From Turicibacter sp. (GTDB lineage Bacteria; Bacillota; Bacilli; MOL361; Turicibacteraceae): a stretch of 23,235 nucleotides of DNA. The position numbers and the translations under genes were made by a program. Under the pieces are notes generated by a model, which was not told the DNA's origin, ran no database searches, and was given only the letters and a program-made list of their open reading frames with translations. Location of the stretch: contig JAUMTV010000052.1 of the NCBI GenBank assembly GCA_030531025.1, positions 1-23,235 of the forward strand. The letters run 5' to 3'. This document shows positions 3,001-22,021 of this stretch, in pieces (position 1 is the stretch's first letter; each line of letters opens with the position of its first letter).

Positions 3001-3335
3001 AAGGCGTGTACTTTTAATACAAGTTCACGGTTATTATAATTGGTTAAAACATCTTGAGAAAATGTTGCAAAAACACCATTAACACCTGGTAATTCGCGAA
3101 TCGCTTCTACATCATTCTCCGTAAATCCAAACGTTGAAAGCAAACGTAAATCCATCATATTATAATCATCATAATATTGATCGACAGTTTTTTCCATTGA
3201 TAATGGAGCAGATTTAATTCCAACAAAAAAGGCAACTCCAAGAGCACAGATCATTAGAATAGAAATAAATCGTCCTAATGATTTTTTGATATCACGAATC
3301 GTATCTTTCGTTAAACTTTTACTCATACCTACCAC
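84..3335 (-). CDS. FtsX/MacB-like ABC transporter permease with long coiled-coil ectodomain
   Basis: Predicted membrane subunit of an exporter-type ABC system, 1083 residues. Visible layout: an N-terminal membrane helix (about 22-40), an extracellular MacB-like segment, a charged Gln/Glu/Lys/Ala-rich coiled coil (about 265-520), a first FtsX block with several membrane helices (about 550-680), a further helix near 722-745, a second ectodomain, and a second FtsX block (about 975-1075). It is translationally coupled to the ATPase gene upstream. The start is ambiguous: GTG at 3335 has an AAAGG motif about 5 nt upstream, while ATG at 3326 lies directly after the ATPase stop. Family knowledge places these proteins in export of lipids, peptides or antimicrobials rather than import. 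The coiled coil may bridge the cell wall or bind a partner; the substrate cannot be told from the sequence. Confidence 0.9.
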   Translation of the reverse strand: MVGMSKSLTKDTIRDIKKSLGRFISILMICALGVAFFVGIKSAPLSMEKTVDQYYDDYNMMDLRLLSTFGFTENDVEAIRELPGVNGVFATFSQDVLTNYNNRELVLKVHALPENLNSNNPDYINQVRVIEGRLPEKSGEAVIEKGNYIETMKIGSKITLESGTDTELSETLKTTKYTIVGIVETPYYLSFDKGTTTIGNGEIASFIMIPQNDFKSDIYTEVFVTATDVSALDTFSEKYEEAMQPLISSIETLADTQTKQRYDEIMSKATEELNKNRQEYEDKKVQALAELQKAADQLEEAKTTIESGKSELASKKAQFEQKISEAKKQIASGETKLTQGEAEFNQAYNEFYANKDSAWAKINEAKAEISLSEDQLNQLKVTIDQMKASLENQALTEEQKTAIQAQLTSLEEQYQGGITTLTAAKSELEKNEQGLVQGEQQLLATQKTLESSRQELNTQKANLENEIAKANQQFEEAEAKLTQGEVDLEAGQKEYEQAKKEAEEGFEEAEEQLTKAEQQIQEMTQPEWYVLDRNKHYSFVDYKGAADSIDAISQVFPVFFFMVAALVCLTTMTRMVDEQRMNIGTLKALGYNKWKIASKFLIYAGLASLTGSLIGAAIGNYVFPKVVTDAYSMMYILPDTIIVISWPLILIALAIAVGVTTLSAYFAVNSELIETPSILMRPKAPKEGKRILLERIPFIWNRLSFIGKVTVRNIFRYKKRFFMTVFGIAGCTALLLTGFGLKDSIRTIVDKQFGTLFLYDMTLTFDRGSTENEQDNLVKTLNEDNRFAGTLLTTSQNGKLYANDDEKDITIFIPEDLNQLDQFIHFQDRKTEKSFNLTDESAILTEKVANQLEVKVGDTITLENADGKKADVLISGITENYIYHYIYLSKTYYEKLFNDTVSFNQLVAVSNQEDTALQSEISSELMSLDEVSGVSWVSTLQDSFDDMIKNLNYVIILLIVSAGALAFVVLYNLTNVNISERMREIATIKVLGFYDLEVSAYIYRENIILTLIGTFVGLGLGMILHQFVMTTVEMDMMMFGRKIQSLSYVYAAGLTFVFAALVNLAMYYKLKNVQMVESLKSVD

Positions 3336-4039
3336 TCAATCCTTTCGACTGGTGTCGGATTCTCATTGATTTCAATGCTAGAAACTTTTCCGTTACGAAC
3401 ATGAATGACTTTATCACCCATCGGTGCAATTGCTAAGTTATGAGTAATCATAACAACAGTCATTCCCATCTTGCGACATGTATCTTGTAATAACTTTAAA
3501 ATAGCTTTTCCAGTATTATAATCTAACGCACCTGTTGGTTCATCACATAATAATAATTTAGGATTTTTAGCTAATGCACGAGCAATGGCCACACGTTGTT
3601 GTTCCCCACCTGACATTTGTGCTGGGAAGTTATTTTTACGGTGACCAAGGCCAACTGCCTCTAATACTTCATGTACATCTAGTGGATTTTCACAGATTTG
3701 TGTCGCTAACTCTACATTTTCTACTGCCGTTAAGTTTTGTACTAAATTGTAAAATTGAAAGACAAAGCCAATGTCATGGCGACGATAAGTAATCAGCTCT
3801 TTATTGTTATAATTACTAATTTCATTCCCTCCAACTTCAATACTTCCACTACTTGCTGTATCCATCCCACCTAATATATTTAAAACCGTACTTTTTCCAG
3901 CACCACTTGCTCCAGCTACAACGACAAATTCTCCTTTATCAATTGAAAAATTGACACCGCTTAAAGCCTCAATTTCTACTTCTCCCATTTTATAAACTTT
4001 TTTGACATTTTTAAAAGTAATATAATCTTTCAAATTCAC
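3329..4039 (-). CDS. ABC transporter ATP-binding protein (LolD/MacB type)
   Basis: ATPase partner of the large permease. It shows Walker [10 protein letters not shown] (about 43-51), the signature MSGGEQQR, Walker B ending in DEPTGALD, and the switch His in MITHN. At 236 residues it has the usual length of a LolD/MacB/SalX-type ATPase. Its stop overlaps the permease start, so the two are one operon. The longest frame starts at GTG 4039, only 3 nt after the AGGAG motif at 4043-4047. TTG at 4033, 9 nt from that motif, is an equally or more likely start. The operon faces away from a TetR-type gene, a common arrangement for inducible exporters. Confidence 0.93.
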
Positions 4040-4813: not shown

Positions 4814-5183
4814 CCAACCCCTTGCGTTAAGACAAGGAATGTTTCGAGGTTGAAGGAAAGAACAATTTCCACGTACTGTTCTTTATGTGTTGTTATTGAT
4901 TATCGTCGGGAATGATAATCGCCGGAAGCATTCACAAAAAGAAAGTAATTACCATATAAGTTAATTACGAGCGCTTTTTCATAAATAGAGCTCAGATTGA
5001 AAACGTAAGTGATGAGAAAAACTCTCTCATAGAAACCAATATGACGGCTAATTTCTTATTTTAATAAGAAAACGCGGCCACTAGGCTCTGTTTATTTTTC
5101 TTGTTTAAACGCAATATGCGTTTTATAGGAAGAAGGCCTGTAAAACCTTTGGGGTTTAATAAACACCAAAGGAGGAATTTGAA
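4814..5183 (+). ncRNA. Long structured RNA leader, class not recognised
   Basis: About 370 nt of non-coding sequence between a good promoter and a small ORF. Stems seen: 4815-4819/4848-4852 enclosing 4820-4824/4833-4837; 4857-4864/4877-4884 (8 bp); 4898-4904/4914-4920; 4945-4951/4962-4968; a long-range 11-bp stem 4981-4991/5085-5095 (one G-U) enclosing 5052-5060/5063-5071; 5107-5112/5118-5123; and 5146-5152/5166-5172, which overlaps the ribosome binding site. I looked for motifs of T-box, SAM, FMN, lysine, cobalamin, M-box, tmRNA and RNase P and saw none. It may be a cis-regulator of the peptide or a functional RNA that carries a small ORF. Confidence 0.6.
5146..5175 (+). promoter_or_regulatory. 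Shine-Dalgarno-masking hairpin
   Basis: CCTTTGG (5146-5152) pairs with CCAAAGG (5166-5172), and the inner GTTT/AAAC (5154-5157/5161-5164) extends the stem. The 3' arm covers the AAAGG part of the strong site AAAGGAGG (5168-5175), which lies 8 nt before the ATG at 5184. This suggests conditional translation of the small ORF. Confidence 0.65.
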
Positions 5184-5300
5184 ATGAAACAAATTCAAAT
5201 GTTAAAAGATGCAGCAAAAGGATTAGTAATTGGAACAGCTTTATTCTATATTACACCTCAAGTCATCGAAGTAATTGCTCACATGACTGCTGTTAAATAA
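5184..5300 (+). CDS. 38-residue hydrophobic peptide, function unknown
   Basis: A short ORF with an excellent ribosome binding site (AAAGGAGG, 8 nt from the ATG), enclosed between its own promoter and a perfect terminator hairpin. The product begins MKQIQMLKDAAKG, then has a hydrophobic stretch (GLVIGTALFYITPQVIEVIA, about 13-32) and ends HMTAVK. It looks like a single membrane-inserted or amphipathic helix after a basic N-terminus. I recognise no family. A type I toxin-like peptide, a small membrane regulator or a bacteriocin-like peptide would all fit. There is no signal peptidase site and no immunity gene nearby. The long structured leader and masked ribosome binding site imply tight post-transcriptional control. 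Confidence 0.65.
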   Translation: MKQIQMLKDAAKGLVIGTALFYITPQVIEVIAHMTAVK

Positions 5301-5305
5301 TAAAA

Positions 5306-5336
5306 TAAAAACCTGATGAATTCATCAGGTTTTTAT
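5306..5336 (+). terminator. Terminator of the small-peptide unit
   Basis: A perfect 20-bp palindrome (ACCTGATGAA/TTCATCAGGT, 5311-5330) is flanked by an A tract and a T tract. It lies 10 nt after the peptide stop codon and can act in both directions. Confidence 0.9.
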
Positions 5337-5440
5337 TTTCCCCCTCTCTTTAAATTTTTAAAGAAAAAAATTTAGTTATAGTTCATTTTACTAAAATAGA
5401 TTTTTTATCAGAAAAAATCACTATTTTTACGATAAAAGTA

Positions 5441-5470
5441 AAAGGCTACCGCTTTGCGATAGCCTTTTTT
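5441..5470 (-). terminator. Terminator of the LEA-like gene
   Basis: AAAGGCTA (5441-5448) pairs with TAGCCTTT (5460-5467), with T-rich sequence on both sides. It directly follows the stop codon of the minus-strand gene at 5472. Confidence 0.8.
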
Positions 5471-5471
5471 A

Positions 5472-5945
5472 CTATTGTTCAAGATGGTCATTTGGGTGTC
5501 GGATTTCATCAACAAATTCTTTTGCTTTATCAACAATTTTTTTTGCTCCATGTTCAATTTTTTCACCGACATGTTCAATACCTTCTGCTGTTTCATGGAT
5601 TACTTTTTCAGTGCCCTCAGCAACATTTTTCATTCCTTTAGCAATACCATGAGCCACATCTTCTGCAACATCTTCTGCACCATTAACTACTTTTTTAGCA
5701 CCATGAGCAATATCTTCTGCAACGTTTTTAACTCCATGTGCTGTTGCATGAACTGCTTTATTCGCACCATATTCCACATCTTTAGCTACATTTTCCACAC
5801 CATGAGCCACTTTTTTTGCTCCGTGTTCAACATCTTCTGCTATGTCTTTGACTTCATGTGCCATTTTATGTGCAACATGTTCGGTACCTTTGACAACTTC
5901 TTCACCAAACTCTTCTTGATGAGTTGATTTATTATAGGTAGACAT
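5472..5945 (-). CDS. LEA-like repetitive amphipathic-helix protein
   Basis: A 157-residue hydrophilic protein built almost wholly from variants of HGAKKVAHGVENVAKDV, with Ala, His, Gly, Glu, Lys and Val recurring in an 11/22-residue rhythm. There is no signal peptide or membrane segment and almost no aromatic residue. This resembles group 3 LEA-like and apolipoprotein-like helices, which often bind membranes or protect against drying and freezing in other organisms. The His content is unusually high for such proteins (HGA, HGV, HVA and EHV repeats) and could bind metal or heme; that is only a possibility. Start choice: ATG at 5945 lies 8 nt after AAAGGAGG (5954-5961), an excellent site. The gene is monocistronic with its own terminator. 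Confidence 0.8.
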   Translation of the reverse strand: MSTYNKSTHQEEFGEEVVKGTEHVAHKMAHEVKDIAEDVEHGAKKVAHGVENVAKDVEYGANKAVHATAHGVKNVAEDIAHGAKKVVNGAEDVAEDVAHGIAKGMKNVAEGTEKVIHETAEGIEHVGEKIEHGAKKIVDKAKEFVDEIRHPNDHLEQ

Positions 5946-5975
5946 CTTAAATACCTCCTTTAAATCTCAACAATT

Positions 5976-5993
5976 GTTTCAACTTAATGAAAC
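5976..5993. promoter_or_regulatory. Inverted repeat upstream of the LEA-like gene
   Basis: GTTTCA (5976-5981) and TGAAAC (5988-5993) form an inverted repeat with a 6-nt gap, shortly upstream of the ribosome binding site on the minus strand. It could be an operator. A possible minus-strand TATAAT lies at 6032-6037, which would place the repeat in the 5' leader. Confidence 0.3.
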
Positions 5994-6193
5994 CAATATT
6001 AGTATTCTCAAATTCTCATCAAAATACATTCATTATAGATTTTTCTTCCAAAAATCAATCTTTATTAAAATACATTCCTAAGACTACTATTTTTACTACC
6101 CTTTCATTCCAATTTATTCTTACCTCAAACTTCAGAGACATTCATTTTCATCAAATTGAAGATAATAAGAGAAAATCAAACTAGGTGATATTT

Positions 6194-10978: not shown

Positions 10979-11668
10979 TTAAACATATACTTTTTCATTT
11001 TGAGCATTTAAAGTTAATGTAATATTTAAGTTTCCATTTCTACATCTTAATTCATCAATTAATTGTTTTTGATTCGCTCCTTCAAGCAATTGAATTGAAT
11101 AATTTAGTTCAAAAAGAGCACCAAAATCACGAGTACGAATTGTTTCAATATAATAGTTGCTTGAATATTTATTTAAAACTTCATCAAAAATACCTTCATA
11201 ATTTAAATCTTCTGGGACAATAATTTTTAAATTCATAGCTTTTGTTTTAGGCATTGCAAATTTTGTAGCATCTAATATTAGCATAACTAGTGATAAACAG
11301 ATAGTAAAAATAACGGCGTATCCAATGTAGCCCATCCCACAACATAAACCTACTGCTAAAGTAAAGAAAACATATGCAATATCTTTTGGTTCCCCAGGGG
11401 CACTTCTAAATCGAATTAATGAAAAGGCTCCTGCTAAACTAAATGCCCGAGCAACATTATTACCAACTAATAAAATAATGATTGAAATAATAACTGGCAA
11501 CATAATCAAAGTAATCGTAAAGCTTGGGCTATATCCAGCTTTTTTAGTTGTCCTCATATAAACTAAACTGATCACGAACCCTAAAATGATTGCAGCTACA
11601 ATGACAATTAACGTATTAAGTAATGTAAATGAACTTCCATCTGTTGATTGAATAATTGTTTCTAACAT
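10979..11668 (-). CDS. DUF4956 family membrane protein
   Basis: A membrane protein of about 229 residues with roughly four helices in its first 150 residues, the conserved motif AFSLAGAFSLIRFRSAPGEP between helices, and a soluble C-terminal ferredoxin-like part (NLKIIVPEDLNYEGIFDEVL onward). This is the DUF4956 pattern; its biochemical role is not known to me. ATG at 11668 is preferred: GGAGAG sits 7 nt upstream, while the in-frame ATG at 11683 has a poor site. With this start it overlaps the VTC gene by 7 nt, so the two are translationally coupled. DUF4956 genes usually sit beside VTC-domain genes, suggesting a joint membrane complex, possibly for polyphosphate or a cell-surface polymer. Confidence 0.88.
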   Translation of the reverse strand: MLETIIQSTDGSSFTLLNTLIVIVAAIILGFVISLVYMRTTKKAGYSPSFTITLIMLPVIISIIILLVGNNVARAFSLAGAFSLIRFRSAPGEPKDIAYVFFTLAVGLCCGMGYIGYAVIFTICLSLVMLILDATKFAMPKTKAMNLKIIVPEDLNYEGIFDEVLNKYSSNYYIETIRTRDFGALFELNYSIQLLEGANQKQLIDELRCRNGNLNITLTLNAQNEKVYV

Positions 11669-12417
11669 GCGATATCTCTCCATTTCTCTTCTATTTCATC
11701 CTTATCTTGGGCACAATACTTCATAAATTCTTGACCGTATTTTGAAAAATGAGTATTGTAAATCTCTAATTCTGATAAAATCTTAGTAAACCAAACCGGG
11801 ATGGCACCTAAAATTTTAACTTCCATTAAATATTGATTTTCTTCAAGAATATCATCCCCATAATATCCCGCTTCAAGTGTTAAGTTTTCACGTCTTGTCA
11901 GTATTTTTGAATCAAAAGTTAAACGAAATTCTGGATCATCTTTAGCAAAAAATGCTTTACGAGTATAGCCAATATAAACAGATGGCTTTACAGATTCATG
12001 ACTCAAATAATAAGCTATTTCATTGATGACTTGTTCACTCATATAGTCACATGTTTCAGGTCGTATTCCTTGCTCAACAAAATCTCTTGCTTCCTCTAAA
12101 GTTAAAATCACACGGCGTTTATTGACGATTCCATTAATCTTTTTCTTTAGTTCTAGAAAAACTTTATCTGTTGGCTTTTTAGGAACTTTATAACTTCTCA
12201 ACCTTAGCTTTTCCTTATAATAAGGTTTTGAAATTGAATGACGAATGACATCAGAATGAATCGTATCGTAATAAATGTTATAGATGCTGTAGTTCTTTCC
12301 ATCTAAACAGTGATGATCCGGTTCCATGTAATCTAACAACTTAGGAATTAGTGCATCATATTGTTGATTCGTTAATAAAAATTTTTTCTCATACCGTTTA
12401 AATGATTTAATCGCCAT
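11662..12417 (-). CDS. VTC-domain polyphosphate polymerase-like protein
   Basis: A 251-residue protein with the VTC/CYTH-type tunnel-fold signature: RYEKKF (8-13), IYYDT, KLRLRSY (70-76), FLELKKK (87-93), KRR (100-102), and a later MEVK strand followed by FSKYG. In yeast Vtc4 these basic and acidic residues bind ATP, metal and the growing polyphosphate chain, so a polyphosphate polymerase or related triphosphate-tunnel enzyme is likely. ATG at 12417 is chosen because GGAGG lies at 12426-12430; the longer open frame begins with TTG inside that site. It is the first gene of a two-gene operon with DUF4956. A -10 box and TTAACA repeats upstream suggest control by phosphate starvation (PhoP). Confidence 0.88.
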   Translation of the reverse strand: MAIKSFKRYEKKFLLTNQQYDALIPKLLDYMEPDHHCLDGKNYSIYNIYYDTIHSDVIRHSISKPYYKEKLRLRSYKVPKKPTDKVFLELKKKINGIVNKRRVILTLEEARDFVEQGIRPETCDYMSEQVINEIAYYLSHESVKPSVYIGYTRKAFFAKDDPEFRLTFDSKILTRRENLTLEAGYYGDDILEENQYLMEVKILGAIPVWFTKILSELEIYNTHFSKYGQEFMKYCAQDKDEIEEKWRDIAC

Positions 12418-12460
12418 TATAATAACCTCCAATTAGATTGAATAAATATCTTATACTTCC

Positions 12461-12515: not shown

Positions 12516-12546
12516 TAAAAAAATCACCAGTTAAACTGGTGATTTT
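12516..12546 (-). terminator. Terminator of the nitrogenase-like/heme operon
   Basis: AAATCACCAG (12521-12530) pairs with CTGGTGATTT (12536-12545) around a 5-nt loop; on the minus strand a T run follows. It closes the seven-gene operon right after the HugZ-type gene. Confidence 0.9.
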
Positions 12547-13009
12547 ATTTCATCTTATGTCCCATGACAGATCCTTCACTAATTATTAATTGATCGTCAC
12601 AAATAGTAATATCATATGCTTTTCCAAATCCTTTAACTAATCGTCCAGATTGGATATTTAATTTAAATATATCAAAATCTAGTTTCTTTAAAACACTCAT
12701 TATTGATGCCCCATGGCTAGCATCAAATTTTTTAAAGATATCCTCCTCTACTTCTTTCATTAAGTCTACCTTACAATTAAAAGAAAGTCGTTCCCTCGCA
12801 AAAATATTTTTCGCATCTTTTTCATCTTCAATCATCATAACTGAACAGTTTGGATTCATTAATAAATGGTGATAATGAGCAGCAGCCTTACTTATATAGA
12901 TATACAAATCAATCCCATCTCTTATAAATGGTGCATAGCTGATTTCCGGTAATAATTGATGATTTAATGAACTAATTATGAGACTTTTTTGTTCTAATAA
13001 CTTCTCCAT
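12545..13009 (-). CDS. HugZ/HutZ-type heme utilisation protein (PNPOx-like fold)
   Basis: A 154-residue protein with the split-barrel pattern of the HugZ/HutZ family: SYAPF (24-28), DLYIYISKAAAHYHHL, NPNCSVMMIEDE, NIFARERLSF, then FKLNIQSGRLVKGFGKAYDI. HugZ (Helicobacter) and HutZ (Vibrio) bind heme and take part in its breakdown, with a C-terminal His as heme ligand; this protein ends GHKMK, with His151 in the matching place. It is the last gene of the operon, 9 nt after the NifK-like gene, and has a good site (AGGAG). A paralogue lies at 21542-22021. Classical HugZ/HutZ reactions need oxygen or peroxide. In an anaerobe it may instead carry heme, a flavin or a reaction product. The family is certain; the reaction is not. 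Confidence 0.85.
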   Translation of the reverse strand: MEKLLEQKSLIISSLNHQLLPEISYAPFIRDGIDLYIYISKAAAHYHHLLMNPNCSVMMIEDEKDAKNIFARERLSFNCKVDLMKEVEEDIFKKFDASHGASIMSVLKKLDFDIFKLNIQSGRLVKGFGKAYDITICDDQLIISEGSVMGHKMK

Positions 13010-13018
13010 TTTAAGCTC

Positions 13019-14227
13019 CTATAAACTAATATTTAAAATTTTCTCTATCCAATACAACATCCCTCTAAATCCAATAAAAGGCGTATATGGATAAATCATT
13101 ATATGATGTAAATTAGGATTGCTTACTTGATGACTAGATTTAGCGGTATAATCCATCTCAATTGTTGCGCCATCACCTAATAGCAGCAATAAAGATTCTT
13201 GCTTTAAATACTTCATTCGGTCAAATTCAGTTCCACCTGCTACTAATGGTTCCTCTACCTCTGTCTGATATAAAATCTCAGCTCGATTAACTTCTAATCC
13301 TAACTCTTCAAGTAGTTGCTTCATTCCGACTACAGTATCATAATCACCAAAGACAGCACATTTTTTTGTTTCTTTATAGAAAAAGAATTTTCGTTTCACT
13401 GTAAACATTTGTTGTTTAATTTGAGTAACTTCTTCTTCATATTTTTCTTCATTTAATTCATATCCCTCAAATGTAGCTAGTTTTTGAATAAATTTCATCG
13501 TATTCTCTAACCCATGTAATGAATGATAAATATACGGAATTCCATATGTTTTTTCTAAATACTGTGCAGCCTTTAATGCTTCGCGTCGGATAACAATATT
13601 TAAACTAGCGGTTGCAGCATTCTCTAAATCCTCAACGCTAGTTTCACAAGTAAAAACAGCGTTTAATTGTTTATTAAAAAATAAAGTCATCATACGCTTT
13701 AGTTCTTCTACATCAGATAAATAATTATATCTATCCATTGTAAATCCTAGAATATTGTATTTCATTGGATCTTTTTGAGCAGGCTTGACTAACTTCTTAA
13801 CAAGTAATAACAACGTTTGTTCAACACCAATATGATAATGGTGCTTTAATCCCCCTGTTGTTATTGGAATTAATTGAGCACTAACTTTAGACTCTAATTC
13901 AAAACAAACACTTTCTACATCTGCTCCAATAATAGATGAAATTGAAGAAGCCATAACAAAAATATATTTTGGTTTAATATTTTCATCAACTTCCATAATT
14001 GCTTGTTCGAGACGATTATACTTTCCAAAAGTTACATCACTTTGATCCATATGAGTGGAATAGATATTAGCTTCATGTTTTCCATTTAAACTTCCAATTC
14101 CTTCAATTGCATAATGAGTAGTTCCGGCCGGTCCAAATTCAATAACACATGCTCCTTTAATAGATGCCAGTGTCCAAATTGTTCCCATCCGATCATTAGC
14201 GATAGGATAATATTTACATAGCTGCAT
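13019..14227 (-). CDS. Nitrogenase component 1-like protein, K/beta-type subunit
   Basis: A 402-residue member of the oxidoreductase/nitrogenase component 1 superfamily, partner of the D-type subunit. It keeps the family architecture (GPAGTTHYA, DVTFGKYNRLEQAI, SSISSIIGADVESV) but not the standard cysteines. Where the D-type subunit has Cys57 and Cys115, this one has Gly/Thr and Ser/Ile; Cys4 is at the place of the first ligand, with other Cys at 27 and 108. With the D-type subunit it could hold a [4Fe-4S] cluster by three plus one ligands, as in the tetrapyrrole reductase DPOR. The start is ATG at 14227, with GGAGG 8 nt upstream inside the D-type gene; the genes overlap by 14 nt. There is no sign of a FeMo-cofactor site. 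It most likely reduces a tetrapyrrole or another imported substrate. Confidence 0.85.
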   Translation of the reverse strand: MQLCKYYPIANDRMGTIWTLASIKGACVIEFGPAGTTHYAIEGIGSLNGKHEANIYSTHMDQSDVTFGKYNRLEQAIMEVDENIKPKYIFVMASSISSIIGADVESVCFELESKVSAQLIPITTGGLKHHYHIGVEQTLLLLVKKLVKPAQKDPMKYNILGFTMDRYNYLSDVEELKRMMTLFFNKQLNAVFTCETSVEDLENAATASLNIVIRREALKAAQYLEKTYGIPYIYHSLHGLENTMKFIQKLATFEGYELNEEKYEEEVTQIKQQMFTVKRKFFFYKETKKCAVFGDYDTVVGMKQLLEELGLEVNRAEILYQTEVEEPLVAGGTEFDRMKYLKQESLLLLLGDGATIEMDYTAKSSHQVSNPNLHHIMIYPYTPFIGFRGMLYWIEKILNISL

Positions 14228-15503
14228 GCATCATTCCTCCCATTGGCATTGATTCCATTTCAAATAACTTAATCATATCCTTCATCATTCCAATTGAAAG
14301 TTCATATCCAATTTTTTGTGCATGAACATCAAACGTTATTTGTAACATACCTTTTTGCTTTAATAACATTGGACTTTCATGACCAACATATAAGTCTGCG
14401 CTAATCGTGTCATATAGCTTACGTAATGGGGCAATATTTGCAATACGACTAATATATGGATCATATCCTTTACTTAAAAGATTGTCTTTAAATTTAATAT
14501 CTTGATCATATAATTCACGTAATTGAACAAATACAGGAACTAGCCCTAAATCACTTAAGAAATCTACTGTTTCAAATGCCATCATTGGTGTATTCCCATA
14601 AATTAATTTCTTCCCTGTTAACAGTGTCTGACATTGATTAAACAATTGATGATATTCTAACTTAACCTGCTCTAGATCTTCTTGTAATGAGATTCCAAAT
14701 AATCCTTCAATTTGTTTATAATTTTCATCAATAATCTTATGATTTAAGTGTTTATCAAAATAAATATAATCAATATTAAAGCGATGATTCATTTCTTTTG
14801 CTAAGTCAAGAGCAATCATATCAGTCACAATATTTAATTTTGCACGAGGTGCTTCTTTAATTTGTTCAATTGTACATTTTGATGGAATAACTGTATTAAT
14901 CGTGATTCCATGCTTAGTTAATAACTGCACTAACTCCGTTTCATCTACTTTATCTTGTCGATGTCCTAAAATATTGATACTATCATTTTGAGCACATGGC
15001 TGCATTGCTTGTGCAAATGATTTGAGCGTTCGCGACATTCCTGGAATATGAGAATTACATTTAAAATGTTCAGTTTGTACAACAAAAATAGGAATATTAA
15101 CCTCCTGTTCTAAACTGTACTTAACTCCTGTATAATCTTCTCCAATTAATTCTGGAACACACGTTGTTACTAACATAATCGCATCTGGATTTTCAATTTC
15201 AATAATTTCTTTAATCGCTTTTTCAACTTGATTTACTGCACCAAATACAACTTCGTTATCGTCAAGAACTAATGAATAAACACTATCCTTTCCCTTTTGG
15301 CCATGATAAGCAAAGTTTTTTGTATAATAAGTGCATTCACTTGTTCCTATAACAACGATTATCATATTTTGAATATATGAAGCAGTTAAAGCAACGCCAA
15401 ATAGTGGACAATGTGTTCCTGGAAAGATTGCATGTGATAAACTTTTAATATCTTGGTCACTTTGAATCTCACTCAGGCGATTTAAAGTTTCTAATGTATA
15501 CAT
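14214..15503 (-). CDS. Nitrogenase component 1-like protein, D/alpha-type subunit
   Basis: A 429-residue catalytic subunit candidate. Three cysteines sit at the classic cluster-ligand positions: Cys32 (GTHCPLFGVAL), Cys57 (GTSECTYYTKN) and Cys115 (VTTCVPELIGED), matching Cys62, Cys88 and Cys154 of NifD. DDNEVVFGAVNQVEKAI is a further family motif. In DPOR the same three positions in BchN hold the NB cluster. It is shorter than NifD and no cofactor-assembly genes (nifB, nifE, nifN) lie nearby, which argues against nitrogenase and for a group IV nitrogenase-like reductase. The last 14 residues carry six Met and one His, partly because this end overlaps the next gene. It lies 10 nt after the heme-type ABC ATPase gene. 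Confidence 0.88.
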   Translation of the reverse strand: MYTLETLNRLSEIQSDQDIKSLSHAIFPGTHCPLFGVALTASYIQNMIIVVIGTSECTYYTKNFAYHGQKGKDSVYSLVLDDNEVVFGAVNQVEKAIKEIIEIENPDAIMLVTTCVPELIGEDYTGVKYSLEQEVNIPIFVVQTEHFKCNSHIPGMSRTLKSFAQAMQPCAQNDSINILGHRQDKVDETELVQLLTKHGITINTVIPSKCTIEQIKEAPRAKLNIVTDMIALDLAKEMNHRFNIDYIYFDKHLNHKIIDENYKQIEGLFGISLQEDLEQVKLEYHQLFNQCQTLLTGKKLIYGNTPMMAFETVDFLSDLGLVPVFVQLRELYDQDIKFKDNLLSKGYDPYISRIANIAPLRKLYDTISADLYVGHESPMLLKQKGMLQITFDVHAQKIGYELSIGMMKDMIKLFEMESMPMGGMMHAAM

Positions 15504-15513
15504 ACCTTACCCC

Positions 15514-16299
15514 CTATGCACTTTTAATTGTTTGAATTGGGTGAATACGTGGTTTATTCGAAATAGGATCTAAATCAATCTCACATTGAATTTGATAAAC
15601 TGATTCAATTGTTTGTTGGTCAATAATTTCATTCGGTGCCCCATCTGAAATAATGGTCCCTTGTTTCATAATAATAAGTCGATCACTGTAGCGACTCGCT
15701 TGATTTAATTCATGTAAAACCATCACAACTGTAATATTTAATTTTTTATTAATCTCTTGAATGAGTTCCATTAATTCTAATTGATATGAAATATCTAAAT
15801 AGGTTGTTGGTTCATCTAGTAATAAAATCGTTGGTTTTTGACATAAAGCTTGTGCAATATAGGCACGTTGTCTCTCTCCACCAGATAATGACCCAATCGG
15901 TTTATCTTTATATCGTGTTAACCCTGTTTGTTCAATAGCCCAATCAATAAATAATTTATCCTCTTCACTTTTATGTTCATACCATTTTTTGTGTGGTAGA
16001 CGTCCATAATAAACAAGTTGTTCAACAGTTAAATCATTTGGTGCCTGATTATGTTGAGATAATAAACAAATTTTTTGAGAAATCAATTTATTTTTTAAAT
16101 ATTTTAATTCAGTTCCTTCTAAATACACCTTACCAGATATCGGACTAATCATACGAGATAATGTTTTTAATAGTGTTGATTTTCCACATCCATTAGGACC
16201 AATAATCGAAACAATTTCACCTTGTTTAATTGATACATTTAAGTTATCAATGATAATTCTATCCTCATATCCTACTTTTAAATCCTTTGCACAAAGCAT
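15514..16299 (-). CDS. Heme/iron-complex ABC transporter ATPase (FecE/HmuV type)
   Basis: A 261-residue ATPase: Walker A GPNGCGKST (34-42), Q-loop in LLSQHN, signature LSGGERQRAYIAQAL, Walker B ILLLDEPTTYLD, and switch His in VLHELNQ. It belongs to the FecE/BtuD/HmuV group that powers uptake of siderophores, cobalamin and heme. The gene starts 2 nt after the permease stop, with GAGGG as ribosome binding site. With the permease and IsdE-type binding protein it forms a complete importer placed between the nifH-like and nifDK-like genes, so import and reduction are produced together. Confidence 0.93.
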   Translation of the reverse strand: MLCAKDLKVGYEDRIIIDNLNVSIKQGEIVSIIGPNGCGKSTLLKTLSRMISPISGKVYLEGTELKYLKNKLISQKICLLSQHNQAPNDLTVEQLVYYGRLPHKKWYEHKSEEDKLFIDWAIEQTGLTRYKDKPIGSLSGGERQRAYIAQALCQKPTILLLDEPTTYLDISYQLELMELIQEINKKLNITVVMVLHELNQASRYSDRLIIMKQGTIISDGAPNEIIDQQTIESVYQIQCEIDLDPISNKPRIHPIQTIKSA

Positions 16300-16301
16300 G
16301 A

Positions 16302-17282
16302 CTAGTTCCCTCTCTTTCTTAATAAATATAAGAAAAATGGTCCACCTACAATTGATGTAATAACACCAACTGGAATTTCAATCGATCCCCCAATAGTTCT
16401 TGCTAATGTATCTGCAATTAATAAAACAATAGCTCCTAGTACCATACTAAAAGGAATTGTGTATTTATGATCACTTCCCATTAGCAGACGTGCAATGTGA
16501 GGAACAATTAATCCAATAAAGCTAATAATTCCAACAACAGCTGTTGAAATAGCTGCTAAAAAAACAGCCACTGCAGAAATAACAAGCCTTGTACGACTTA
16601 CATTAAATCCTAGATTTTTTGCTGATTCATCACCAAGTTGTAAGACGTTTGCACTACGAATCAAAAATAATGAAAGTCCTAGACCAATTAATGAATAGAG
16701 AAACAGCATATCTACGTATGACCATGTTTTAGTTGCAAGACTTCCGTTTAACCATAAAATCGCACTCTGAATTCTGTCACTAAATAGAGTTGATAATAAA
16801 GAAATAAATCCACCTAAAATTGTGTTAATCGCAACACCAGCTAAAACAATGCGCTCTGGTCTTAAACCATTTTTCCACGCCATTATAAATACAAGTGCAC
16901 ATGCAATTGCTCCTCCAACGAAGGCGAATAAGGGTAAAGCGCCTGAAAGTTGAGGCATTAATAACAAAATAATAATTGCTGCTACACTAGCTCCACTTGA
17001 AACCCCGGTAATTCCAGGGTCAGCAAGTGGATTTTTCATAACAGATTGTAATAAAACACCAGATACGGCTAAATTAGCGCCAATCAAAACCGCTAAAATA
17101 TTTCGTGGTAGTCGCATTTTGTAGACAATTGTCATGACCATACTATTATCTTGATGAATTAGCGAACTAATAATTTCACCTAAACTTAAGTTGACACTTC
17201 CAATAGTTGAAAATAATACCACTAAAATTACTAAAACAAGTGCTGTTCCTCCAATAATAAGATATTTTCTATCTAAACTCAT
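16302..17282 (-). CDS. FecCD/HmuU-type ABC permease, likely heme
   Basis: A 326-residue, very hydrophobic protein with about nine or ten membrane helices and FecCD motifs: RLPRNILAVLIGANLAVSGVL near residue 60, NPLADPGITGVSSGA near 85-100, and the C-terminal block RTIGGSIEIPVGVITSIVGG. The length is normal. Such permeases act as homodimers with a BtuD-type ATPase. The start is ATG at 17282, 2 nt after the stop of the binding-protein gene, showing tight coupling. Permease sequence alone does not fix the ligand; heme is inferred from the binding protein next door. Confidence 0.93.
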   Translation of the reverse strand: MSLDRKYLIIGGTALVLVILVVLFSTIGSVNLSLGEIISSLIHQDNSMVMTIVYKMRLPRNILAVLIGANLAVSGVLLQSVMKNPLADPGITGVSSGASVAAIIILLLMPQLSGALPLFAFVGGAIACALVFIMAWKNGLRPERIVLAGVAINTILGGFISLLSTLFSDRIQSAILWLNGSLATKTWSYVDMLFLYSLIGLGLSLFLIRSANVLQLGDESAKNLGFNVSRTRLVISAVAVFLAAISTAVVGIISFIGLIVPHIARLLMGSDHKYTIPFSMVLGAIVLLIADTLARTIGGSIEIPVGVITSIVGGPFFLYLLRKRGN

Positions 17283-17284
17283 GA

Positions 17285-18208
17285 TTAGTTACCATAAAAA
17301 ATTTCTCCAAGTGTTTCAATGGCCGTTGTAATTTCTAAATTCGCTGATACATTAAAAACTGATGGATCTAAATCATAAACTTTTCCACTCTTTACAGCAT
17401 CTAATTCTTGATAAGCGTCATTAGCATCAAATGCTTCATCAAACATTTTTTTTGTTTGTTCAATATTTCCGTGTGCAAAACGTAAAACATAATCAGGATT
17501 TTGAGCTAAGATTTGTTCTAAACTAAATTGAACATAGCCTGAACTCATATCTCCATCAAGTTTCGATGTAATATTTGTTGCACCTAATGTCTTCACTAAA
17601 TCTCCTAAATACGAAGTATCTGTTGCTAGCATAAAGTTCTCACCTGCTCCAAAAATTACAGCCACTGTTGGCGATTGATCTCCTTTTTTCTCTAAAGCTT
17701 TTGTAACTGATGCTTCAATTTCATTAACTAGCTTTTTAGCCTCATCCTCACGGTTAATTTCTACTCCTAATTGTTTAATACTGTTTACAAAATCAGAATA
17801 ACTTCCTGTCTCAAAAAAGAAAGTATTTAATCCATATTGTGATAAACTCTCTTCTACACTAGCTTGAAAATTAGAATCCATAATAAACAAATCTGGCTCT
17901 AATGAAGCAACTATTTCTAAATCTGGACTCATTGCTTGACCAACCTCTGGTAAATCAGCATATTGTGCCGGTAAGGTTTGTGTTGTGGTTGGTACACCTA
18001 CTACCTCAGCATCTAATTTCGCTAATACATTAGTTGCAGATACAGTTGCAGATACAACTTTTACCTCCTCAACTGGAGTTTCTTCTTGAACCGCTTGATC
18101 TGGTTGTGGATTTTCTGTTGATTGATCAACGTCTTGCCCGTCATTTTGACATCCAACTAACATCATACCTGCAACCATTACCATACTTAATAAATTTTTA
18201 ACTTTCAT
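17285..18208 (-). CDS. isdE: IsdE-type heme-binding lipoprotein of the ABC importer
   Basis: A 307-residue surface lipoprotein with lipobox LVGC, Cys20 as the lipidation site and an acidic Gln/Pro linker. The mature part is a cluster A-III helical-backbone binding protein. From memory of Staphylococcus IsdE, Met93 in VGQAMSPDLE aligns with its heme ligand Met78, and His246 in VLRFAHGN with its ligand His229. The region NDAYQELDAVKSGKVYDLD and the following NVSANLE also match the IsdE C-terminal pattern. Heme, rather than a siderophore or cobalamin, is therefore the likely ligand. ATG at 18208 follows AGGAGG. The gene sits directly after the nifH-like gene, in an order unusual for either nitrogenase-like or heme-uptake operons. 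Confidence 0.85.
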   Translation of the reverse strand: MKVKNLLSMVMVAGMMLVGCQNDGQDVDQSTENPQPDQAVQEETPVEEVKVVSATVSATNVLAKLDAEVVGVPTTTQTLPAQYADLPEVGQAMSPDLEIVASLEPDLFIMDSNFQASVEESLSQYGLNTFFFETGSYSDFVNSIKQLGVEINREDEAKKLVNEIEASVTKALEKKGDQSPTVAVIFGAGENFMLATDTSYLGDLVKTLGATNITSKLDGDMSSGYVQFSLEQILAQNPDYVLRFAHGNIEQTKKMFDEAFDANDAYQELDAVKSGKVYDLDPSVFNVSANLEITTAIETLGEIFYGN

Positions 18209-18237
18209 TTTCTCTTCCTCCTACTTTTTTTACTTAA

Positions 18238-18981
18238 CTAAGCAATTATTTTCTTTGCTAACTCTAAATATACATTTGCCATCTCACAGCTACTCTCTTT
18301 TTCAATAACAGTTTTTCCATCATTTTCGGATAATTGTACGACTTTATCACGTGGAATATAATGATAAATGCTTGAATTTATTTCAGTAGCTAATTTTTGA
18401 ACAAGTTCATATTCATTCTCCACATTTTTAGCATTTAAAATCAAACCTTTTAAAGAGGCATATCCTCGATTTTTAAATTGATTAACTGCTGTTGAAATAT
18501 TACTTGCGGCATACATTGACATCATTTCCCCCGAAGTCACAATATAAACCTCATCAGCATATCCATTACGAATTGGCATCGAGAATCCACCACAAACAAC
18601 ATCACCTAGCACATCATAAATAACGATATCTGGCTGGTAAACTTCAAATGCATTTAATTCAGCTAATTTTTCAAAGGCAGCAATAATTCCTCTTCCTGCA
18701 CAACCAACCCCTGGAGTAGGTCCGCCAGCTTCAACACATAACACCTCATTAAATCCTTTAAAAACAATATCTTCTAATGTAATGTTATCTCCTTTTTTAT
18801 TCATTACTTCCAAAACAGTTGGTATAAAATTTCCTCCCATTAAATTTTTAGTTGAATCAGCTTTGGGATCACATCCAATCTGCATAACTTTAAGTCCCAA
18901 CATAGATAATGCAGCCGATAAGTTAGATGTCGTTGTTGACTTCCCAATCCCACCTTTTCCGTAAATTGCTAATTTTCTCAT
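18238..18981 (-). CDS. NifH-like nitrogenase-reductase ATPase
   Basis: A 247-residue Fe-protein homologue, shorter than NifH (about 290) and near the size of CfbC-like proteins. Walker [10 protein letters not shown] is at 8-16, CDPKADST at 37-44, and the two cysteines that would hold the bridging [4Fe-4S] cluster of the homodimer are Cys94 (GVGCAGRG) and Cys130 ([10 protein letters not shown]). It should deliver electrons, coupled to ATP hydrolysis, to the D/K-type pair in the same operon. All key residues are intact. First gene of the operon, with AAAGGAG before the ATG and a Fur-type operator upstream. Group IV Fe proteins include F430-synthesis, methylthio-alkane and unassigned types; synteny here points to heme. 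Confidence 0.93.
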
Positions 18982-19004
18982 TGCTTTTCTCCTTTATTTG
19001 TAAC

Positions 19005-19049
19005 ATAATAGAGTTATCAATTGATAACCATTATCAACGAATATATTAT
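19005..19049. promoter_or_regulatory. Divergent promoter region with Fur-type operator
   Basis: TGATAAC-C-ATTATCA (19022-19036) differs by one base from the Bacillus Fur 7-1-7 consensus TGATAAT-N-ATTATCA. It overlaps a perfect 16-bp palindrome, GTTATCAATTGATAAC (19013-19028), as in double Fur sites. The plus-strand promoter TTGATA (19021-19026), 17 nt, TATTAT (19044-19049) reads to the AraC gene; a minus-strand TATTAT at 19005-19010 probably serves the nifH-like operon, with a weak -35. Confidence 0.75.
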
Positions 19050-19133
19050 AATCAATTAGCTAGATAAAAGCTTAAACAATATATTGTTCTTTTATAACAA
19101 TATTCTTATTATTTTTAAAAGGAGATAAAATAT

Positions 19134-19868
19134 ATGACTTCTATTCACCGCGTATTAGTAGATTTTTATAGTTGTACACAAATTCCGATTCAATTTTTAG
19201 ATCACTCATTAAATTCTCTTTTTAAAGTCAACATAACTACAGAAGTTAAAAGAATCGTTGATCGTACGACTTTAATTCACGATTTAAATCAAACACTCTC
19301 ATCATTGACGACCTTAACCTATTTAGAACAAATTCATTTTATTGTCTTACCTCTGTTCAATCATCCATCATTTAAAGGATATTTTGTCGTCGGTCCATTT
19401 CACTCTTCTCCTAGCTCTAATGAGGTTGACTTAGTCTATAAACCTTTTAGTTGCATTCCTTTCATTGGTAAATTACTTGAGAGTATCGTTAAGCAACAAT
19501 TATTTTCCAGTCCAAAATTCAATAATTATGTAAATGAAGGAATTAAATTTATCCATAAACATTACAAACAAACGATTACACTCAATGACCTTTGTCAGTA
19601 CTTAAGTATAAATAAAAGTTATTTTTGTTCTATCTTTAAGGCTGAAACAGGGCTAACCTTTTCCCATTTCTTGAATCGAGTTCGCATCGAAAAAAGCAAA
19701 CAATATTTAATAGATAGTAACGAATCAATTTTATCTATTGCCCTTTCCGTTGGTTTTAATAATCATACTTATTACAGTATGATTTTCAAAAAAATAACTG
19801 GCATGACACCATTAGAATTTCGTCAACAAAAATCAATCCATGACAATAAAAAAACAGCAAAAAATTAA
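19134..19868 (+). CDS. AraC-family regulator divergent from the nitrogenase-like/heme operon
   Basis: A 244-residue regulator. The N-terminal half (FYSCTQIPIQFLDHSL, later HFIVLPLFNHPSFKGYFVVGPF) looks like a small sensor domain seen in some Bacillota AraC proteins rather than a cupin. The C-terminal part, about 135-235, has the two helix-turn-helix units (LNDLCQYLSINKSYFCSIF and ILSIALSVGFNNHTYYSMIF) and MTPLEFR. It shares a 152-nt promoter region and the Fur-type operator with the operon, so it is probably its local activator, responding to heme, a product of it, or iron state. The effector cannot be read from sequence. ATG at 19134 follows an AAAGGAG site. Confidence 0.92.
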   Translation: MTSIHRVLVDFYSCTQIPIQFLDHSLNSLFKVNITTEVKRIVDRTTLIHDLNQTLSSLTTLTYLEQIHFIVLPLFNHPSFKGYFVVGPFHSSPSSNEVDLVYKPFSCIPFIGKLLESIVKQQLFSSPKFNNYVNEGIKFIHKHYKQTITLNDLCQYLSINKSYFCSIFKAETGLTFSHFLNRVRIEKSKQYLIDSNESILSIALSVGFNNHTYYSMIFKKITGMTPLEFRQQKSIHDNKKTAKN

Positions 19869-20535: not shown

Positions 20536-21330
20536 TTATTTTACTTTTAAAAATTCGGTTGCGAAGTCAATCAATGAGCGATAATCAATTAAAGAACAGA
20601 TTGCACCACCGAGTGGATAAGTTTGAATTTCATTTGATTGTTCATACGCTTGTCCAAGTTCATTAAATCGACTTGAATCTAAGGATAAATCTTCAAACTC
20701 AACTAGTGTGCGTTTCCCATTTTGAATAATGACTGCTTCATGATTCATCTTATCACGACAATTAGCAAAGTATTCCGCTAAGTGAAGTGCCGTTAATTGA
20801 CTGTAATCAACACCTAAACATAAAATTTTAGCATCTTGTGCATATAACTTTTGTAAAGGTGACTTTTCCCCAAACATTGATTCTAATTGATGGTTTGCCA
20901 TAAACCAATCCGCTTTTCTCCCAGCCGCTAAATAAGAGGCAATCGGATGTTCACTACGACAGACATTCTTATTTCTTGAAAATGTTTCCGAAATCGCTCC
21001 TGATAAAATTGGTGATAATTCTGGATCAAAAGCTGGTGTCTGCTTGCAAACAGCGCTCTTCCATTTCTTCGGCAATGTTTCATCAAAGAAAGTTGGACAC
21101 GATTGATTAATCTTATGTGCAGGCATAATAATTGTTGTATGATAACCTGCGACTTCATAAATGGCCTCTATAACAGTTTGTGCGCCACCTATTACATAAT
21201 CAAATGCTTTTAAGTCAGCATAAACAATTAACAATTCTTGTTGATCTACTTTTAATTGTTTTAATGCCTTTAGCCAACCTGACTTTGTAATTGGTTTTTT
21301 TGTGTTACTGATTACTTCTGTCAATCTCAT
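20536..21330 (-). CDS. AAC(3)-family N-acetyltransferase
   Basis: A 264-residue member of the aminoglycoside 3-N-acetyltransferase/YokD family. The motif CRSEHPIASYLAAGRKA corresponds to the family's conserved R..HP..S..A.G segment, with the catalytic His; GEKSPLQKLYAQDAKILCLG and ALHLAEY are also typical. Known members transfer acetyl from acetyl-CoA to 2-deoxystreptamine aminoglycosides, but many chromosomal homologues have no shown resistance role and the true substrate here is unknown. The start is ATG at 21330, about 8 nt after GGTGG; the GTG at 21342 lies too close to the site. It is monocistronic, with nothing mobile beside it, which suggests a resident gene. Confidence 0.88.
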   Translation of the reverse strand: MRLTEVISNTKKPITKSGWLKALKQLKVDQQELLIVYADLKAFDYVIGGAQTVIEAIYEVAGYHTTIIMPAHKINQSCPTFFDETLPKKWKSAVCKQTPAFDPELSPILSGAISETFSRNKNVCRSEHPIASYLAAGRKADWFMANHQLESMFGEKSPLQKLYAQDAKILCLGVDYSQLTALHLAEYFANCRDKMNHEAVIIQNGKRTLVEFEDLSLDSSRFNELGQAYEQSNEIQTYPLGGAICSLIDYRSLIDFATEFLKVK

Positions 21331-21510
21331 GATGATTTCCACCCTTCCTTTAAATGATACAATTGATCATTTTCTAAATCTCTTCTCTCAAAATCATAAG
21401 CTTAAATAAGTTCAGCTATTACCCCACTGCTAACTTATTACTGTTATTTTACATAAAAAATCCACAGTTGAAAAGTAGCTAATTATCCCAAGAAAAAATA
21501 ACCTTAATAT

Positions 21511-21541: not shown

Positions 21542-22021
21542 TTATTTTTTTGAATGAAGCTGATGAGCTGGGCCATTGCCTCCAACGGGAGTTAACGTAG
21601 CAACTCCATTTTCATAAGTAATATCAGATGCTTGTCCAAATCCTTTTACTAATCGTCCTTTTTTTATCGTCAATTTGAAAAAAGAAAAATCCATCTGGCG
21701 TAAACGTTCCACCATTTTTTCATCATGCATTTCTTTAAACCATTGATAAATTTCTTCATCATCTTCTACGCGAGTGGCATCTGCTATAAATGAAACACGT
21801 TGTCTAGCAAAAATAGTTTTAGCTTCATGTTCATCTTCAATAATCATAATAGCACAACCTGGATTATTCATTAAATTTTGATAATGATTAGCAGTCTGAC
21901 TAATATAAATGTAAATATCACTTGCTTTCACGATATACGGTGCATAATTAATCACTGGTTCATGACTCTTCGTAATTGTACTTAACATAAGTGTTTTTTG
22001 ATTTTTTAATAGGTCTTCTAT
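21542..22021 (-). CDS. Second HugZ/HutZ-type protein, probable AUA start
   Basis: Paralogue of the protein at 12545-13009: NYAPYI, DIYIYISQTANHY, GCAIMIIEDE, TIFARQRVSF, FKLTIKKGRLVKGFGQASDITY, and a His-containing C-terminus (AHQLHSKK). The first usual start codon is ATG at 21988, but it has no ribosome binding site and would drop 11 residues. The upstream codons (EDLLKNQKTL) align with the paralogue's EKLLEQKSLI, and the codon at the paralogue's Met is ATA (22019-22021), 5 nt after AGGGAC. An in-frame stop lies just upstream and no ATG, GTG or TTG is available. So either AUA is used, or the start was lost by a point mutation and a shorter protein is made. It is cotranscribed with the RpiB-like gene, 27 nt downstream of it. 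Confidence 0.8.
   Translation of the reverse strand: MEDLLKNQKTLMLSTITKSHEPVINYAPYIVKASDIYIYISQTANHYQNLMNNPGCAIMIIEDEHEAKTIFARQRVSFIADATRVEDDEEIYQWFKEMHDEKMVERLRQMDFSFFKLTIKKGRLVKGFGQASDITYENGVATLTPVGGNGPAHQLHSKK

Follow-up and report, generated by a model that had tools for sequence, protein, structure and literature searches.

A run of seven closely packed genes on the minus strand of a contig from Turicibacter sp. (JAUMTV010000052.1, GenBank assembly GCA_030531025.1) encodes the three subunits of a nitrogenase-like reductase, here called H, D, and K, together with a putative heme importer and a HugZ/HutZ-like protein. We describe this operon, its relatives in other genomes, and its possible role in the release of iron from heme without oxygen. 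The window, i.e. the whole stretch of DNA analysed, comprises 23,235 nucleotides (positions 1 to 23,235 of the contig). The seven genes occupy 12545-18981, each starts with ATG, and the intergenic gaps are 9, -14, 10, 2, 2, and 29 bases (Table 1). The same seven products had been named in an earlier note on this DNA, and both the arrangement and the identities were confirmed by open reading frames (ORFs) and by Pfam and NCBIfam matches. The extent given there, 12545-19868, holds for the operon part; the segment 19134-19868 is a divergent gene on the plus strand.

Table 1. Genes and regulatory features of the operon region (positions in the window).
Feature	Position	Strand	Evidence
NifH-like Fe protein (H), P-loop ATPase, predicted reductase component	18238-18981	-	PF00142, 323 bits
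IsdE-like lipoprotein, predicted heme-binding	17285-18208	-	TIGR03659, 268.9 bits (cut-off 298.65); PF01497, 153 bits
FecCD-type ABC permease	16302-17282	-	PF01032, 320.6 bits
ABC transporter ATPase, iron-chelate type	15514-16299	-	PF00005, 124.7 bits
NifD-like subunit (D)	14214-15503	-	PF00148
NifK-like subunit (K)	13019-14227	-	PF00148
HugZ/HutZ-like protein, accessory	12545-13009	-	TIGR04109, 132.7 bits (cut-off 240)
AraC-type regulator, divergent from operon	19134-19868	+	PF12833, E=6.5e-21
Fur-box-like palindrome TGATAACCATTATCA	19022-19036		13/14 fixed positions; 40 bases before NifH-like start

The curated Pfam cut-offs were well exceeded for PF00142, PF00148, PF01032, PF01497, and PF00005. 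The combination of PF00142 with PF00148, which the two component 1 subunits match with 196 and 239 bits, lies far above the respective cut-offs of 25 and 28.6 bits. The IsdE and HugZ models were the top NCBIfam matches of their proteins, yet both scores remained under the cut-offs. The HugZ-like protein also scored below the cut-off of a second HugZ/HutZ model (104.7 versus 225 bits) and resembles the solved structures 3swj, 3tgv (HutZ), and 3gas. Another HugZ/HutZ-like gene, scoring 119.7 bits (cut-off 240), is located on the same strand at 21542-21988, about 2.6 kb upstream of the operon.

Scanning of a species-representative genome collection with two peptide patterns only revealed 21 named loci; given this narrow search, further relatives were probably missed. 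The six core genes (H, binding protein, permease, ATPase, D, and K) were found within 12 kb in 20 of these loci, while the remaining one, L005, is truncated at its 5' end, the contig end falling inside the binding protein gene. This recurrence argues against a neighbourhood arisen by chance. The gene order was identical in 17 of the 20 complete loci; L014, L016, and L017 are rearranged, with all six genes kept. The D proteins share 38-69% identity with that of the window. Homologs of the permease and of the ATPase were present in all 23 loci compared (L001-L023; the 4.3 kb pieces L001 and L002 lack H and the binding protein), and K follows D in 21 of 21 named loci. Since it is split into two ORFs in L004 (region 4838-6060), this locus was omitted from the D/K alignments; the N-terminal frame of K is broken in L013. 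Either case may reflect sequence error or decay. L020 was omitted from D alignment A2. Most of the related loci come from anaerobes, and even between distantly related ones the importer remains associated with the nif-like genes.

The seventh gene behaves differently. HugZ stands beside the core in six of the 21 named loci, each with a D protein sharing 58% or more identity with that of the window, and four other loci with equally similar D proteins have no HugZ beside the core. A flavodoxin gene occupies this place in eight loci, none of them HugZ-bearing; the best family was PF12641 in L011-L013 and L016-L019, and PF00258 in L021. Neither gene was found in 7/21 loci and both in 0/21, some loci being cut at one side. 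The unit is thus a six-gene core with a changeable accessory, HugZ or flavodoxin, and a seven-gene unit with HugZ as a fixed member was rejected. Of the co-occurrence of all seven genes for which the earlier note had proposed a search, the part concerning the transporter and the nif-like genes stands (20/21); HugZ, whose lack of conservation there the note had itself counted against its idea, is not conserved beside them.

Several single loci deserve mention. The three loci labelled Clostridioides difficile (L006, L007, and L020) consist of the six-gene core without HugZ or flavodoxin, and no locus from further C. difficile genomes was obtained in the two-pattern scan. ABC-type gene pairs, exporter-like by ATPase similarity and length, are located inside or beside the heme loci L016 (3497-6948) and L017 (15827-19371); they could provide an exit route for the tetrapyrrole product.

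In the Fe protein, Cys94 and Cys130 were invariant in 21 of 21 rows. It shares 65-67% identity with homologues from Sporomusa and Treponema, 51% with NifH of Pantoea, and 41% with BchL of Roseobacter, and its top-scoring model was CfbC (351 bits, cut-off 402). The D subunit retains Cys32, Cys57, and Cys115, the predicted ligands of a [4Fe-4S] cluster, while His146, Cys149, and His152 are invariant in a loop matching the active-site loop of nitrogenase. K has no cysteine at the cluster positions, which are taken by Asp12, Thr36, and Ser95. Asp12 is kept across the rows and is predicted to be the fourth cluster ligand; this choice is a guess, with Thr36, His38, and Cys108 of K as other candidates. 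Thr36-Thr37-His38, His59, and Cys108 are invariant in K. The ligands of the FeMo-cofactor, which we take to be Cys275 and His442 (A. vinelandii numbers), are absent from D, where the aligned places are occupied by Asp228 and Ile389, neither of them conserved.

Models of DPOR subunits were matched far under their cut-offs: 116 versus 490 bits (BchB); 209 versus 345 bits (BchL); and 53 versus 420 bits (BchN). For the predicted folds of both D and K, the best structural match was BchB of DPOR; CfbD was not among the matches listed. A NifH/NifD tree against CfbCD, DPOR, COR, and Mar had been proposed in the earlier note. It was run against DPOR and COR, with which D and K did not group; CfbCD, Mar, and Isr are not among its rows, and the BchZ reference is a partial gene. 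D and K form clades of their own with Sporomusa and Treponema, within a tree whose deep branches are weak and whose Bch rows are long. The note's comparison with tetrapyrrole reductases is borne out by the three cluster cysteines of D, their absence from K, and the BchB-like predicted fold, features by which D and K together resemble a single-cluster tetrapyrrole reductase rather than a nitrogenase or a thioether reductase.

All 22 binding proteins scanned matched the IsdE model, and for that of the window the next family reached only 61.3 bits. In an alignment with S. aureus IsdE (2q8p) and Lmo2184, Met93 and His246 of the window fall on Met78 and His229 of 2q8p once the numbering of that chain is shifted by a constant 29. 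An IsdE (M78A; H229A) double mutant is named in a title within the reference list of PMC12670364, and a literature search on IsdE Met78/His229 found no paper. The axial Met was kept in 18 of 21 rows and the His in 21 of 22, the window included. Further surveys covered 22 genomes, i.e. two Turicibacter genomes (the nearest genome, G001, and its congener G083, on which all statements about Turicibacter genomes rest) and the genomes of 20 of the 21 named loci (L012 omitted). NEAT heme-binding domains were identified in five of them, and a NEAT gene adjoins the operon in three loci, L014 and L016, each also with a sortase gene, and L017. Judged by their gene content, these three look like Isd loci in which nitrogenase-like genes stand in place of the IsdG heme oxygenase. 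In L003, a gene suspected to encode NEAT (13147-14112) gave no match to any Pfam family. For the heme-binding role that the earlier note had given to the lipoprotein, the two kept IsdE ligands and the NEAT neighbours speak in favour, and the sub-cut-off IsdE score against.

A Fur-like operator had also been claimed, and the palindrome at 19022-19036 agrees with this, as do similar boxes before 13 other loci. The scan comprised 27 stretches from the window and 20 loci, with two starts tried for the six loci having a flavodoxin gene first and with single-letter shuffles as the control; scores refer to what we take to be the Fur-box consensus in its 7-1-7 form. When a 260-base stretch surrounding the operon start was shuffled, 0 of 500 trials reached the score of the window box, which overlaps a second palindrome at about 19013-19028. 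In the whole window, three matches with up to two mismatches were found versus 0.64 expected, a number equalled in 4 of 100 shuffles. Boxes of at least 12/14 (shuffle p <0.03) precede the operon in 14 of the 21 loci tested (the window and 13 others). In five of these 14 the box is placed ahead of the flavodoxin gene, which ties this gene to the operon. An AraC-type homologue is located upstream on the opposite strand in 11/21 named loci.

The survey for other routes of heme use revealed the following. Ferrochelatase was above the cut-off in one of the 22 genomes, and there by a partial match (27.1 versus 27 bits), and in neither Turicibacter genome. No genome had a protein above the cut-off of the ChuW/HutW family (TIGR04107); weaker matches occurred in all 22, the best of them in the two Turicibacter genomes being HemW. 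In Acidaminobacter (L063), a gene at 1474-3830 on the minus strand encodes a full-length ChuW/HutW-like radical SAM protein (235 bits, cut-off 400) and adjoins another IsdE-like gene. Both anaerobic heme routes may therefore, on sequence grounds, be present in one cell of Acidaminobacter. Close relatives of this protein (E up to 1e-80) were found in none of the other 21 genomes, and further, more divergent anaerobilin synthases in these genomes are possible. The two Turicibacter genomes contain no other nitrogenase component 1 genes. NifB was above the cut-off in one of the 22 genomes, not Turicibacter, with a sub-cut-off match in one more (limit 1e-60). No radical SAM motif (CxxxCxxC) was present in the window or, for the 21 loci, in ORFs of at least 150 residues lying up to 4 kb from the core; the bare PF04055 profile is too broad for this purpose.

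Taken together, these data make it reasonably likely that H, D, K, and the IsdE-type importer act as one system, in which heme would be imported and then reduced in an oxygen-free, ATP-driven reaction freeing its iron. The parts of this proposal differ in strength. The operon very probably imports heme, and heme or its porphyrin is probably the substrate of the reductase; that ring reduction leads to iron release is possible, and we put it forward with reserve.

According to the proposed scheme, iron shortage would induce the operon via Fur, with the AraC protein as a possible substrate sensor. The lipoprotein would capture heme by its kept residues, and the ABC importer would take it into the cell. 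The H dimer is predicted, by homology and ligand pattern, to hydrolyse ATP and transfer electrons one at a time to a single [4Fe-4S] cluster, whose ligands would be Cys32, Cys57, and Cys115 from D and Asp12 from K. The electrons would then go on to heme, predicted to be bound where DPOR binds protochlorophyllide. By general chemistry, a reduced tetrapyrrole ring should bind Fe(II) less firmly. The macrocycle would thus be converted to a hydroporphyrin-type ring holding Fe(II) weakly, after which the iron would leave and the tetrapyrrole would be passed on. The HugZ-like protein, or flavodoxin in other lineages, may handle heme or the product, or feed electrons. The nearest alternative outcome would be plain reductive demetallation with the ring unchanged, as HmuS does with NADH.

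A number of observations weigh against this proposal. The IsdE and HugZ scores fall below the curated cut-offs, and no NEAT match was obtained in 17 of the 22 genomes, Turicibacter included. The axial Met is replaced by Phe in L008, L009, and L010, and the His by Pro in L021, a Spirochaetaceae locus with a double binding protein. D and K are separate from the DPOR/COR subunits in the tree, and support for joining the K rows other than Sporomusa is weak (86/56). Asp12 of K stands elsewhere than Asp36 of BchB, and the likewise invariant Cys108 lies off the cluster positions. The Fur-type box is weaker in the three C. difficile loci (11/14, shuffle p about 0.15), and no convincing one was found at the starts tested in L014, L015, L016, and L021. 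The ChuW/HutW-like protein of Acidaminobacter and the sister gene set of Sporomusa, with its TonB siderophore receptor, enterobactin-type binding protein, and esterase, complete this list. The double binding protein of L021 (6253-8115) has two domains and 620 amino acids, and its substrate may differ.

Two sister H-D-K sets with FecCD-type importers are located on plasmids, one in Sporomusa termitida among siderophore-uptake genes (L058:5906-13230) and one in Treponema saccharophilum (L059:5835-12131). The gene order in Sporomusa is TonB siderophore receptor (TIGR01783, 340 bits; cut-off 223.5), AraC gene, binding protein, two permeases, ATPase, H, D, K, and esterase. The binding protein matches the enterobactin family best (70 bits versus a cut-off of 205), and the esterase weakly resembles enterochelin esterase (32 bits versus a cut-off of 222). 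The Met/His pair is missing in this binding protein and in both binding proteins of L059.

The Sporomusa set is the chief argument for the main rival explanation, namely, that the substrate is a different iron chelate taken up by the cell, for instance a ferric siderophore, from whose tight grip very-low-potential electrons would free the iron, heme being at most a side substrate. The FecCD and ATPase families offer no discrimination here, as they cannot separate heme from siderophores. We nevertheless consider this explanation unlikely for the window, the lipoprotein of which matches IsdE with 268.9 bits and keeps the Met and His absent from the Sporomusa and Treponema proteins. NEAT genes adjoin three relatives, and His152 of D and His38 of K, invariant in the window's clade, are replaced by Phe and Leu in Sporomusa. 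By this pattern, the two histidines are candidate heme contacts. A generic siderophore importer was rejected as the best reading because the IsdE ligands are kept. Since the Sporomusa system adjoins siderophore-uptake genes, the enzyme group as a whole need not be heme-bound. Sequence comparison suggests that nitrogenase-like enzymes tied to iron-chelate import form a wider group, which may act on several imported iron chelates and within which the window's clade most likely represents the heme branch.

A slightly less probable rival is that the enzyme builds from heme a reduced tetrapyrrole cofactor or stored form. The fold fits ring reduction, and the named tetrapyrrole enzymes of the superfamily, DPOR, COR, and CfbCD, are biosynthetic according to sections of PMC11423573 and PMC12552129; the Fur-type boxes and surface heme-capture genes, however, point to iron supply, and no other tetrapyrrole-modifying gene was a repeated neighbour, most neighbours being unscanned. 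It is still more improbable that some other tetrapyrrole, for instance a corrinoid or a porphyrin of nickel or zinc, is brought in by the importer and acted on by the reductase: the binding protein does match the vitamin B12 family weakly (32 bits) and the permease also matches BtuC models, but the IsdE match is far stronger, and the heme-binding Met and His of IsdE are kept. Finally, a nitrogenase or C-S reductase of the Mar/Isr type, belonging to the same superfamily and placed beside iron-uptake genes merely for its iron need, is highly improbable in view of the lack of P-cluster cysteines in K and of cofactor ligands in D, the rarity of NifB, the missing radical SAM motif near the operon, and the P-clusters and [Fe8S9C]-clusters of Mar, held by Cys270 and His429 as described in parts of PMC12552129. 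Membership in these groups was rejected on only three of six P-cluster cysteines (all in D), no cofactor ligands, no NifB above the cut-off and no NifEN-type component 1 genes in the two Turicibacter genomes, and no radical SAM motif in the ORFs scanned near the core that would indicate an adjacent B gene.

Among the known systems, DPOR (BchLNB) shares with the window operon the three-subunit H/D/K design, a single predicted [4Fe-4S] cluster with three cysteines from one subunit, the BchB-like structure, and a likely tetrapyrrole substrate. It differs in its sequence models and tree position, in having Asp36 of BchB where K has Thr36, and in being accompanied by pigment genes instead of an importer. 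CfbCD, which acts in F430 synthesis, and COR are likewise nitrogenase-like tetrapyrrole reductases, and the Fe protein scores best with CfbC; in contrast to the separate K gene found here, CfbD is a homodimer without K (PMC11423573, in part). The same sections place the H, D, and K of Mar and Isr in nitrogenase-like group IV and report uptake genes near Isr. Both Mar and Isr are accompanied there by a radical SAM B protein, and Mar is described in parts of PMC12552129 as having P-clusters and [Fe8S9C]-clusters; by sequence, the window operon has neither feature.

The isdCDEF-srtB-isdG system of S. aureus, as outlined in passages of PMC12670364, is similar in its IsdE-type lipoprotein with Met and His, its FecCD permease and Fur-type operator and, with regard to relatives of the window operon, its NEAT and sortase genes; unlike Isd, the operon contains no gene recognisable as an IsdG-type heme oxygenase, and nitrogenase-like genes stand in its place. 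The anaerobilin synthases ChuW, HutW, and HmuW, with HmuF/HutZ, are also oxygen-independent heme enzymes of heme-uptake operons with a flavodoxin-type or HutZ-type partner (PMC10404700, PMC12670364, both in part). These use radical SAM chemistry, and their family had no match above the cut-off and one full-length candidate below it in the genomes surveyed. The HmuS de-chelatase, known from Bacteroides, releases iron from heme reductively and without oxygen in gut anaerobes. According to excerpts of PMC12583661, this NADH-driven membrane protein is a relative of the class 1 chelatases and works without ATP; it is not made of H, D, and K subunits.

The D protein of the window is 99% identical to that of the nearest genome, G001, and 86% identical to a protein named Turicibacter. 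Horizontal transfer of the operon from Clostridia to Turicibacter is probable on sequence grounds, because the D clade of Turicibacter includes Peptostreptococcaceae (99/94; inside it 91/87) and D was present in only two of the 295 genomes searched of its phylum, both from the genus of the nearest genome. The K tree gives no resolution on this question.

The flanks of the region contain a VTC-domain and DUF4956 gene pair (10979-12432, minus strand) on one side and, on the other, a desulfoferrodoxin-like gene (PF01880; 22609-23007, minus strand), which fits an anaerobic host. An AAC(3)-family acetyltransferase-like gene at 20536-21342 (minus strand) scored 146 bits versus a curated cut-off of 270 and is therefore not called an aminoglycoside resistance gene.

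The earlier note knew of no characterised system with this gene set, and none was found in the open-access literature either, nor any published description of the operon; preprints and most subscription papers lay outside this search. The anaerobic heme degraders listed in passages of a 2025 review of bacterial heme use (PMC12670364) comprise ChuS-type proteins and radical SAM enzymes, including one from Enterococcus; the word 'nitrogenase' is absent from its main text. The enzyme superfamily is already known, tetrapyrrole reductases included, so that the novelty would reside in the suggested role in heme-iron release, for which no counterpart was found. Among 120 NifD-like homologues listed, 5 of the 15 named proteins bear the name of an oxalate:formate antiporter, apparently a misannotation that has spread.

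The way in which Gram-positive anaerobes of the gut obtain iron from heme in the absence of oxygen is largely an open question. We propose, tentatively, that nitrogenase-like heme reductases constitute a separate class of anaerobic heme-iron release in Clostridia, Turicibacter, and beyond, replacing heme oxygenase or anaerobilin synthase, and that together with the siderophore-linked sisters they form a broad group of iron-chelate-stripping enzymes. If so, an ATP-driven nitrogenase-like heme enzyme would extend the known functions of a superfamily that is among the best studied, and genes recorded as 'nitrogenase component 1', or in some cases as oxalate:formate antiporter, would gain a role. 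It would also bear on the fate of heme from meat and blood in the gut.

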